From Chryseobacterium sp. (lineage in GTDB: Bacteria; Bacteroidota; Bacteroidia; Flavobacteriales; Weeksellaceae), in contig JAITMC010000040.1 of the NCBI GenBank assembly GCA_031277615.1, positions 1 to 64,000 of the forward strand: 64,000 nucleotides of DNA, given 5' to 3'. Numbering within the stretch: the first letter of the stretch is position 1; each line of letters opens with the position of its first letter. The notes under the pieces were generated by a model that searched no databases, had not been told where the DNA came from, and saw only the letters and a program-made list of their open reading frames with translations. The translations under genes were made by a program, and so were the position numbers. Of this stretch, positions 49,969 through 52,738 are shown in pieces.

Positions 49969-50937
49969 ATGAGAATTATGAAAAACTTTTTCTTGTCAAT
50001 GATGGCATTCGTGAGTGTTCTGTCACTCAGTGCCTGCGCTGACTCCGGCGCCAATCAGGATCTGACTTCCAAAGAAAACCTGGAAACAGGTAATATTACT
50101 TTGAAAGACTTCGGAAAAACTATTCCCGTAGGAATTGAAGAAGATGGAAACGGAACATTAAGGGTTTCCTTCATCATCAGGGCACAGTTCTTTACCATAA
50201 GACCTACCAAAGAAAATGAAAGCACTGTTGAAATGATCCGACAGGCCGTGAAAAATGAGACTCCGATTCATGTTTTCATTAAGCCGGGGACTACAGAAAT
50301 TGCAAAGGTTGAAAAAGTGAATGAGGAAGACCTTCGTTACTTCAAATCTCTTTTAACAAAAGAAATAAAAACTGAGGCGAATAAACTGACCAGTGTACTT
50401 CCGAACGTTACCACTTTAAACAATATGTTTACCCTGATCAAAAACCAGGCATGTGGTACCTCAACAGCATCCTCACCCTGCATTACCTTCAGATATCCTG
50501 TTGACGGCTGCTATGCAAGGGCTCATAAAATGAGACAAATCCTCATCAGCAACGGATACGACTGTGAAAAGCAGTTTGTTTACGGTAATTTAAGAGCTTC
50601 CACCGGAACCTGTTGTGTAAGATGGAATTACCATGTTGCGATTCTGGTAAGCTATAAAAATGCGTCAGGAGTTACCGAGAAAAGAATTATAGATCCTTCC
50701 CTTTTCCCTGGCGGACCGGTAACAGATGCAGCATGGAGAGCGGCATGTACCAATTCTACCTGTGGGTCGGTATCGGTAAGTTCTTATGCCAATACAGCAG
50801 GAAATGTGTATTACAGAAACCCTGCAGGTTCTGTGATATACGACAACAGCTATGCTGATACCAATTGTACATTAACCACTTTTGCTCCTCTGTCGGGATG
50901 TTCACCTTCCCCTGCACCGGATACTTACTGTCCTTAA
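49969..50937 (+). CDS. protein-glutaminase precursor (protein deamidase), first copy
   Basis: A 322-residue prepro-enzyme closely resembling the protein-glutaminase of Chryseobacterium proteolyticum, which deamidates glutamine side chains in proteins. Layout: signal with lipobox LSAC (Cys23), propeptide (about 40-138, KDFGKTIPVGIEE onward), and a mature domain from about LTSVLPNV. The triad is Cys181 in VDGCYARAHKM, His222 in YHVAILVSY and Asp242 in IIDPSLF; many paired Cys. The propeptide should block the active site until removed. The start may be M1 or M4. A second copy lies 800 bases downstream, with a propeptide-like lipoprotein gene between. Confidence 0.92.
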   Translation: MRIMKNFFLSMMAFVSVLSLSACADSGANQDLTSKENLETGNITLKDFGKTIPVGIEEDGNGTLRVSFIIRAQFFTIRPTKENESTVEMIRQAVKNETPIHVFIKPGTTEIAKVEKVNEEDLRYFKSLLTKEIKTEANKLTSVLPNVTTLNNMFTLIKNQACGTSTASSPCITFRYPVDGCYARAHKMRQILISNGYDCEKQFVYGNLRASTGTCCVRWNYHVAILVSYKNASGVTEKRIIDPSLFPGGPVTDAAWRAACTNSTCGSVSVSSYANTAGNVYYRNPAGSVIYDNSYADTNCTLTTFAPLSGCSPSPAPDTYCP

Positions 50938-51006
50938 CTTAATCTGATGGATTCCGCATTTATTTTTATTATAAATTGCAGGAACCTTTTAATCACTCAA
51001 AAGCCT

Positions 51007-51324
51007 ATGAAAACCTGGACTTATTTCTTTTTATTACTTGTTATGATCACTTCATGTTCCGGCCATTCAGCCCCGAAAAACCTTACATGGTATAAAAATG
51101 CAACCATCAGTGATGTTACTGAAGATCCGGATCATCCTGAAACGGTCATGCGGGTAGCCATCGGAATCAGCCAACAGGTATTTTACGTATCTAAAAAAAA
51201 TGAGGACCGTATGATTCTAAATAAAGTTAACCAAAGCTTTAAAAGCGGAAAAGCATTTGATATAGGCATTGAAAATAATACCAATATCATTAAAGAAATG
51301 AGAGAGGTGAAAAATACACCATAG
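51007..51324 (+). CDS. propeptide-like lipoprotein between the two protein-glutaminases
   Basis: A 105-residue lipoprotein (lipobox MITSC, Cys17; start at the ATG at 51007). Residues about 33-101 align by eye with the propeptides of both flanking enzymes. Shared features are the D/E-rich stretch before MRV (LRV in copy 1), AIGISQQVFYVSKKNED against SFIIRAQFFTIRPTKEN, a middle amphipathic helix, and NTNIIKEMREV against TTEIAKVEKV. No catalytic domain follows. It may inhibit or chaperone the deamidases at the membrane. Homology is inferred from pattern only and identity is low. Confidence 0.65.
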   Translation: MKTWTYFFLLLVMITSCSGHSAPKNLTWYKNATISDVTEDPDHPETVMRVAIGISQQVFYVSKKNEDRMILNKVNQSFKSGKAFDIGIENNTNIIKEMREVKNTP

Positions 51325-51398
51325 CCTTCCTCTTTTTATAAGTTTCGATTAAAAAATTGATTTCAAAAACAGACTGCTTTTTCTGCAGGCTGTCCTTA

Positions 51399-51432
51399 AA
51401 AGGATTCCGCCCGGTTCTCGGCGGGATCCTTT
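51399..51432 (+). terminator. terminator after the propeptide-like gene
   Basis: AAAGGATTCCGCC pairs with GGCGGGATCCTTT (13 bp, one G-U pair), followed by GTTTTT. It separates the first two cassette genes from the second enzyme gene. Confidence 0.85.
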
Positions 51433-51737
51433 GTTTTTATCAGTGAAAGCTATTTCTGTGTTGTTTCACTATTTTGCAAATCTATAATCTGTAAGTTTAT
51501 ACCCCCTATTAAAATCAATCCCAAAACTTTGTAAACGCTGCAGGTTATATTTTTCAATTCAATTCTCTAAAACGTGAAAAATTCATCAGTTCAACAGCCC
51601 TATTTTTCATAATTTCACATATTTCACCAATTTTCACCAATAATAACTTGCAATTATTTCAAAAATTAACAAGTTTTACTGATACTAAATCACGAAATGC
51701 TTATTTGAAATAACTCACCCACAACCTATAACAAATT
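51433..51737 (+). promoter_or_regulatory. upstream region of the second protein-glutaminase gene
   Basis: About 300 AT-rich bases with no gene. Contains a TTTCACATATTTCACCAATTTTCACCAAT run of short direct repeats (about 51613-51642), possibly a regulator site. Promoter not clearly placed. Confidence 0.35.
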
Positions 51738-52697
51738 ATGAAAAAATTCATGTTTTCTATGATGGCATGTATAATACTACTGTCATCTAATGCCTGTTCA
51801 GACTCCAATATGAACCCAACAGCCCATCCTGACTTGAAAGAATCCGGAGAAATAACTGTAAAAGACTTCGGAAAGACCATACCGGTAGGAATCGATAAAG
51901 AAAATGATACCTTCAGAGTTTCATTAATGATCAGAGCCCAGCCTTTTAAAATAAAAGATACGAAAGAAAACACGGTTTTTATTTCAATGATCAGGCAGGC
52001 TATAAGGGACAAGTTCCCTTTACATATTTTTATTAAAGCCGGCACACCTGAAATTGTCAGAGTAGAAAAGGTAACCGAGGAAGATCTGCGGTATTTTAAG
52101 TCTGCCTTATCTGAAAGAGCAAAAAAGGAAACAATAAATACATTATCCAGGGTGATTCCTAATGTAAATCTATTGAACAGCTTATTTGCTCAAATCAAAA
52201 ACCTGTCCTGCGAAACATCTCCCGCTTCTCCCTGTATCACATTCAGGTATCCTATAGATGGCTGCTATGCAAGAGCACACAAAATGAGAGAAATACTGAA
52301 TCAGGCAGGGTATGAATGTGAAAAACAGTTTGTATATGGTAATCTAAAAGCATCTACCGGTACATGCTGTGTAGCCTGGGCATTCCACGTTGCGATTCTC
52401 GTAAGTTTTAAAAATGCTTCAGGAGTGATTGAAAAAAGAATTATAGATCCTTCATTATTTTCCAACGGACCTGTACCTGATGCGGTATGGAGAGATGCCT
52501 GCGTTAATTCTTTATGTGGATCTTCTTCTGTCTCTTCTTTTGTAAATACTGCCGGAGATGTTTATTACAGAGATCCAACCGGCTCTTTATTCCTCTACGA
52601 TGATCACCTCATCAGTACCAATTGTACTTTAAATACCTATTATCCTTTATCCGGATGCAATACTTATGTACTTAATGAATGTCCTGTATTTAACTAA
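51738..52697 (+). CDS. protein-glutaminase precursor (protein deamidase), second copy
   Basis: A 319-residue prepro-enzyme, paralogue of the 49969 gene. Lipobox SNAC (Cys20), propeptide with VKDFGKTIPVGIDK, mature domain from about LSRVIPNV. The triad is conserved: Cys176 (IDGCYARAHKM), His217 (AFHVAILVSF), Asp237 (IIDPSLF). Differences cluster near the active site (AWAFHV against RWNYHV) and at the C-terminus. It has its own upstream region after a terminator, so the copies may be expressed differently. Confidence 0.92.
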   Translation: MKKFMFSMMACIILLSSNACSDSNMNPTAHPDLKESGEITVKDFGKTIPVGIDKENDTFRVSLMIRAQPFKIKDTKENTVFISMIRQAIRDKFPLHIFIKAGTPEIVRVEKVTEEDLRYFKSALSERAKKETINTLSRVIPNVNLLNSLFAQIKNLSCETSPASPCITFRYPIDGCYARAHKMREILNQAGYECEKQFVYGNLKASTGTCCVAWAFHVAILVSFKNASGVIEKRIIDPSLFSNGPVPDAVWRDACVNSLCGSSSVSSFVNTAGDVYYRDPTGSLFLYDDHLISTNCTLNTYYPLSGCNTYVLNECPVFN

Positions 52698-52705
52698 TTT
52701 TTATA

Positions 52706-52738
52706 AAGCTCCTGCAATACCCATCACTGCAGGAGCTT
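52706..52738 (+). terminator. terminator of the second protein-glutaminase gene
   Basis: AAGCTCCTGCA pairs perfectly with TGCAGGAGCTT over 11 bases, followed by ATTTT; nine bases past the stop. Confidence 0.85.

Follow-up and report, generated by a model that had tools for sequence, protein, structure and literature searches.

Genes at the locus

Two protein-glutaminases (PGs), glutamine deamidases of the families PF18626 and NF040782, are encoded in a 64,000-nucleotide stretch of a Chryseobacterium sp. genome (assembly GCA_031277615.1, contig JAITMC010000040.1, positions 1 to 64,000), referred to here as the window. The enzyme genes flank a gene for a small lipoprotein (SL), and all three lie on the + strand in the order E1 (49969-50937), SL (51007-51324) and E2 (51738-52697). 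A mechanical open reading frame (ORF) of SL begins at 50947; 51007 is the start kept in relatives and gives a protein of 105 aa. A deamidase plus inhibitor cassette, in which SL is a stand-alone relative of the PG propeptide and its inhibitor role is predicted, is the best-supported reading of this locus.

E1 encodes a pre-pro-enzyme of 322 aa whose orthologue is common to the genus, and E2 a divergent second PG of 319 aa without an SL of its own; the two are 64% identical. Both exceed the curated NF040782 cut-off of 250 (428.7 bits for E1, 401.4 for E2) and the PF18626 cut-off of 25 (96.3 and 91.0). The triad columns, in E1 Cys181 (50509-50511), His222 (50632-50634) and Asp242 (50692-50694), are invariant in all 101 aligned PGs, E1 and E2 included, which bears out the first-pass annotation of this DNA in calling both genes PGs with an intact Cys-His-Asp triad. 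E1 aligns with pro-PG of C. proteolyticum (3a56/3a54) over the entire pro-enzyme. The 3a56 chain begins at E1 residue 25 and the mature chains 2ksv and 2zk9 at residue 140; alignment to 3a56 and 2zk9 places the propeptide at residues 25-139 (50041-50385), and the mature deamidase domain occupies 50386-50934 (PF18626, structure-chain alignment, triad columns). The active-site loop of the propeptide, RAQF, lies at 50179-50190.

E1 is sister to the PG gene of genome G053 in the tree (support 100/98). E2, on a long branch (0.91), groups apart from E1, so that a recent copying of E1 is rejected as its source. It could be an old duplicate or an imported gene, and both its place in the tree and its origin are unsure. 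Among 173 sampled genomes of the genus, only the window genome has NF040782 genes above the cut-off side by side. E2 is a fast-evolving second gene outside the conserved unit, which is a PG followed by SL, and the paired enzymes are a peculiarity of the window genome. The flanking of SL by two PGs, noted at the outset, is real in the window and does not describe a conserved arrangement.

Other genomes of the genus have more than one PG-like match. One genome with the usual PG-SL pair has a second, divergent PF18626 match (G054:C118:30588-30908; E 2.1e-17). Another, G089, has nine scattered or clustered PG-like matches (loci L065, L066 at G089:C2:202500-219000, and L067), one of them above the NF040782 cut-off, and no SL; some of the nine have no propeptide. 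The G089 genes are interspersed with three papain-like protease genes (named by eye) that have a similar signal peptide.

Relation of the lipoprotein to the propeptide

Pairwise BLASTP of SL against E1 and E2 reveals no resemblance (E 0.13 and 0.71), and at the level of single sequences a likeness to the propeptide could be chance. SL matches the NF040782 profile at E 0.0038 (16.5 bits) over positions 16-112, which comprise the signal and propeptide part; it stays below the cut-off of 250 as an enzyme, and the catalytic domain is unmatched in its 105 aa. A Pfam search of SL to E 1 returns only DTC at 0.11 and no match to the I29 model. Profile comparisons are more informative. HHalign of 99 SL sequences, with the signal removed, against PG propeptides gives E 5.5e-4 and a score of 25.4 over 55 columns without gaps, both profiles being shallow. 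None of 200 column shuffles reaches that score (best 22.8), and reversed SL and the mature domain score 8.25 and 8.17.

Hidden Markov models (HMMs) were also run against 1234 distinct ORFs of at least 60 aa, in which SL rows were labelled by the motifs QVFY, QIFY or QIFF. The best 45 rows for the propeptide HMM outside its own set comprise 37 SL, eight further PG-family proteins or pieces and no unrelated ORF, with a register of mostly profile 31-90 on SL 42-102. Matches of the SL HMM to PGs share a single register, with profile positions of about 25-85 on PG 51-113. Some results count against homology: HHalign's own probability for the match is only 30%, the SL HMM places a G060 membrane protein (L153, E 5.5e-6) above all PGs (best 0.012), and eight of its best 45 rows are ORFs outside both the PG and the SL groups. 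This weaker direction of search would not convince by itself. The G060 membrane protein (L153:1229-1948), whose segment 149-188 is the part matched, may share the beta-alpha-beta arrangement of the propeptide; it may resemble DUF3592.

A fold match had been named beforehand as a check, and the fold of SL indeed matches the propeptide of pro-PG (entries 3a54, 3a55 and 3a56). No staphostatin entry is among the best 50 fold matches, an absence that proves nothing in a list of that kind. Since controlled profile comparisons and fold agree, chance resemblance is rejected. Homology of SL to the PG propeptide, in one register and with the same fold, is supported, and the first-pass view of SL as a propeptide-like protein lacking an enzyme domain holds.

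The relation extends to the active-site loop. In pro-PG this S2-S3 loop is reported to cover the active site and to place Ala47 over the pocket. All 101 aligned PGs have Ala47 and Gln48 (3a54/3a56 numbering); relative to 3a56, the 3a54/3a55 chain has Gln at 47. The counterpart in the window SL is IGISQQVFY (residues 52-60; 51160-51186), and among 48 non-redundant SL no other of the 76 nine-residue windows is as conserved as 52-60. Residues 53-58 sit between strands 3 and 4 of the SL structure model, and the ungapped alignment sets SL 56 opposite Ala47 and SL 57 opposite Gln48. Position 57 is Gln in all 99 aligned SL, and position 56 is Ala in 65, Pro in 26 and Gln in eight, the window SL having Gln56.

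Distribution, linkage and selection

Samples of the genus (173 genomes), family (320), order (395) and phylum (395) were searched. NF040782 is matched in 105 genus genomes and SL strongly in 100, all of which have a PG; SL always lies downstream of it on the same strand. A PG without SL occurs in five genomes, SL without a PG in none and neither in 68 (Fisher 1e-42, with kinship ignored). The expectation that SL is conserved next to PGs is thus confirmed in 100 of 100 cases. The count fell from 103 to 100 on removal of G029, G088 and G115, which have only a weak unrelated match; it includes a frameshifted SL (G147) that is outside the 99 aligned sequences. A second SL search gave 104, reduced to 102 when G060 and G174 were dropped as unrelated, and these 102 include a pseudogene (G126) and a gene of another genus (G197). 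Eleven weak SL-like matches (E 0.002-0.009) belong to proteins of 280-286 aa that have the lipoprotein signal in common with SL, look unrelated and adjoin a nucleotidyltransferase-like gene (named by eye); these were excluded from the count. The PG stop and SL start are 51-80 nt apart at 97 measured loci; in the remaining three genomes (G085, G124 and G129) the PG gene itself is in pieces.

PF18626 is found in 107 of the 320 family genomes, and outside the genus these are G197 and G244. In G197 (L152:1937-2557) SL lies directly behind the PG and is fused at its C-terminal end to an Ig-like domain of the Big_14 type (29.1 bits against a cut-off of 27), with a 38-nt PG-SL stretch that has no hairpin; the G244 PG has no SL. 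The 395 phylum-sample genomes contain no SL match beyond the genus, and the order sample was not searched with SL. PF18626 occurs in 28 of 395 order genomes, three of which (genus g35) have no propeptide-like or SL-like match. The 64 relative loci that bear names are all from Chryseobacterium, save one from a Weeksellaceae metagenome-assembled genome. Two genomes (G090 and G091) have a PG propeptide that agrees with the crystallised C. proteolyticum chain, and SL is present in both.

SL is under purifying selection. Across 150 filtered pairs (mature-domain dS 0.05-0.8, other dS 0.02-2), the mature domain has a median dN/dS of 0.022, against 0.073 for SL and 0.095 for the propeptide. The quartiles of SL (0.056-0.100) and propeptide (0.066-0.141) overlap, so SL is not demonstrably more constrained than the propeptide. 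Between the window SL and its nearest relative, in G053, dN is 0.155 and dS 1.02.

Intergenic hairpin and cellular location

At nearly every locus of the genus the PG-SL gap holds a stem resembling AGCTCCTGCA / TGCAGGAGCT, commonly with T after it (examples L011, L081 and L092). Its median z against base-shuffled sequence is -5.0 over 99 loci, and 11 of 12 pairs show compensatory changes among 47 non-redundant loci. By appearance it looks like a leaky terminator. The window copy between E1 and SL (50945-50995; -10.1 kcal/mol, z -1.0) is the second weakest, and a strong hairpin of the same sequence type as the relatives' PG-SL hairpin stands behind E2 instead (52708-52736, + strand; -18.7 kcal/mol for the stretch). 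A further terminator-like hairpin lies 3' of SL on the + strand (51399-51432). Genes resembling trpB, trpA and lipB lie upstream of the locus, and an SDR-like gene lies downstream on the opposite strand (all named by eye).

The putative lipid anchor of SL is the lipobox Cys17 (51055-51057), a Cys in 99 of 99 aligned SL. Behind it, the majority residues at +2 to +5 are S, G/S, N/S and S, and an acidic consensus is absent; at +6, 49 of the 99 have S, 22 have E and 20 have G. Surface lipoprotein signals of other Bacteroidota are described, in the sections consulted of one study, as acidic behind the Cys (QKDDE, SDDFE, SDDDD; PMC5080379). The Chryseobacterium signal may differ. Since SL has no such consensus, a periplasm-facing anchor is the likelier, though not certain, orientation.

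Pro-PG, too, may carry a lipid anchor, from which maturation would release it. Its signal peptide ends in a Cys that is invariant in 101 of 101 PGs (Cys23 in E1, 50035-50037), with Asn at -2 in 99 and Asp or Glu at +3 in all. The parts examined of the literature on this enzyme do not mention such a status, and a published PG description gives, in the portion consulted, a putative 21-residue signal peptide (PMC6132073). Lipoprotein zymogens freed by maturation have been proposed for Bacteroides C10 proteases in sections of an earlier report (PMC2873492).

A proposed envelope guard

The small lipoprotein is best read as a trans-acting envelope guard, a stand-alone propeptide inhibitor of PG, to which we assign a probability of about 0.58. 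Pro-PG would cross the inner membrane in an inactive state, with the propeptide loop Ala47-Gln48 over the catalytic Cys, and other proteases would later remove the propeptide. SL, whose gene would share a transcription unit with PG or be transcriptionally coupled to it, would be tethered in the envelope by its own lipoprotein anchor, most likely facing the periplasm, and would present the same OB-like fold and loop. By docking in the active site of prematurely matured PG, it could then spare the cell's own envelope proteins from deamidation, while exported mature PG would be beyond its reach. The intergenic hairpin would hold SL below PG in amount, at a level that may be enough to guard the envelope but too low to silence the secreted enzyme. 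Passages of two papers describe the pro-form of PG as inactive until the propeptide is removed (PMC12542772, PMC13139226), and in one of them a propeptide-sized band co-purifies with mature Bacteroides PG, the same being cited for the Chryseobacterium enzyme (PMC13139226). A propeptide that stays with the mature enzyme, together with an inactive pro-form, leads to the expectation that a free propeptide-like protein would bind in trans.

Several observations weigh against the guard. PG is intact while SL is absent (G048, G157), a pseudogene (G126) or frameshifted (G147); all four genomes fall in one clade, of which G137 and G154 keep SL. SL is therefore dispensable at least there, and its decay beside intact PGs argues against an essential guard as well as against an obligate folding factor. 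Divergent PGs without SL occur in G064 and G244, and G089 combines its nine PG matches with none. If the hairpin truly lowers SL, SL would be unable to titrate all PG. Glu at +6 in 22 of 99 SL leaves the periplasm-facing location uncertain. Part of the Bacteroides work further reports pro-PG that is active with its propeptide on, 17-fold below the mature form (PMC13139226), and this residual activity implies that the propeptide does not block every member of the family completely.

Other roles for SL can be weighed against the same evidence. As a steric chaperone, SL would assist PG folding in trans rather than chiefly inhibit; its propeptide fold, its position beside the PG gene and the small amount of protein that a catalyst-like helper needs, as the hairpin suggests, would all suit this. 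Aligned PGs carry their own propeptide, however, which makes a second one superfluous for folding, SL is lost where PG is retained, and folding alone would not demand that the loop counterpart be the most conserved part of SL; we regard such a helper as unlikely. Retention of mature PG on the envelope through the propeptide site until release is improbable to much the same degree: the lipobox, the propeptide fold and the propeptide-sized band that remains with mature PG point towards it, but holding the enzyme through its active-site loop would also block it, and the hairpin suggests that SL is too scarce for bulk retention. A doubtful variant makes SL a substrate trap and timer as well as a block: PG would bind the window SL, deamidate its Gln56 to Glu and be released, so that the guard wears out through the reaction that it opposes. 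The Ala and Pro forms at position 56 would then be lasting inhibitors, and the trap of the window would go with its two PGs and weakened hairpin, that is, with more SL.

The first-pass annotation had left a guard and an activator side by side, and of these the guard is favoured. An activator would displace the cleaved propeptide and speed release of active PG, and the common fold and register do lead one to expect the same binding site; SL would then occupy that site itself, and the SL-less PGs of one clade look intact, which makes this role very improbable. A neutral relic of partial PG duplication is hardly credible, since the decay of SL in one clade is offset by a median dN/dS of 0.07 that refutes neutrality for most of the genus, and by the presence of SL in 100 of 105 PG genomes and in a second genus, where it is joined to Big_14.

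Known systems and significance

The closest parallel to the PG-SL cassette is SpeB-Spi of Streptococcus pyogenes, in which a small stand-alone propeptide relative is encoded beside a C10 protease gene. The parts consulted of two studies call Spi a propeptide analogue whose gene is transcriptionally coupled to speB (PMC2873492, PMC3462683). The same-strand adjacency of Spi to its enzyme gene recurs in 100 of 100 SL genes; SL genes, which may be similarly coupled, begin 51-80 nt behind PG, but a terminator-like hairpin lies inside that gap. SL differs in that its expected target is a glutamine deamidase (PF18626/NF040782) rather than a C10 cysteine protease, in that its role as inhibitor is a prediction, and in its export and lipoprotein signal, Spi being thought cytoplasmic in the text available (PMC3462683). 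The C10 pairs Bfp-Bfi and Btp-Bti of Bacteroides, another member of the Bacteroidota, are, according to sections of the same studies, likewise served by small adjacent co-transcribed genes, several for predicted lipoproteins, and their zymogens are predicted lipoproteins from which maturation frees the enzyme (PMC2873492, PMC3462683). Bfi, as partly described there, shares no significant sequence identity with propeptides or with Spi and is likened to staphostatins, whereas SL is propeptide-related (PMC2873492).

Pro-PG of C. proteolyticum itself (3a54, 3a55, 3a56) resembles SL in fold, register and loop, but there the propeptide lies within the enzyme chain. I29-type inhibitors and the SUB1 propeptide-like inhibitor are eukaryotic, target proteases and have other folds than SL, and we know of none that shares an operon with its target. 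Their likeness to SL is that CTLA-2alpha, crammer, BCPI and the Plasmodium SUB1 inhibitor are, in the portions consulted, protease inhibitors related to propeptides but separate from any enzyme chain (PMC4089206, PMC3551606, PMC6993865). Among the matches listed in the open-access literature searched, no PG inhibitor or stand-alone deamidase propeptide was found, and the examined parts of the open-access PG literature do not mention a partner gene like SL.

PG is used commercially as a food enzyme, and part of one report describes its production in Bacillus subtilis as inefficient (PMC12542772). Most species of the genus that have a PG keep SL as its partner. If it inhibits in trans, SL would be, to our knowledge, the first deamidase inhibitor of the stand-alone propeptide type. 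It would then also be a ready tool for PG production or for switching PG off, and would reveal how a deamidating cell shields its own envelope.

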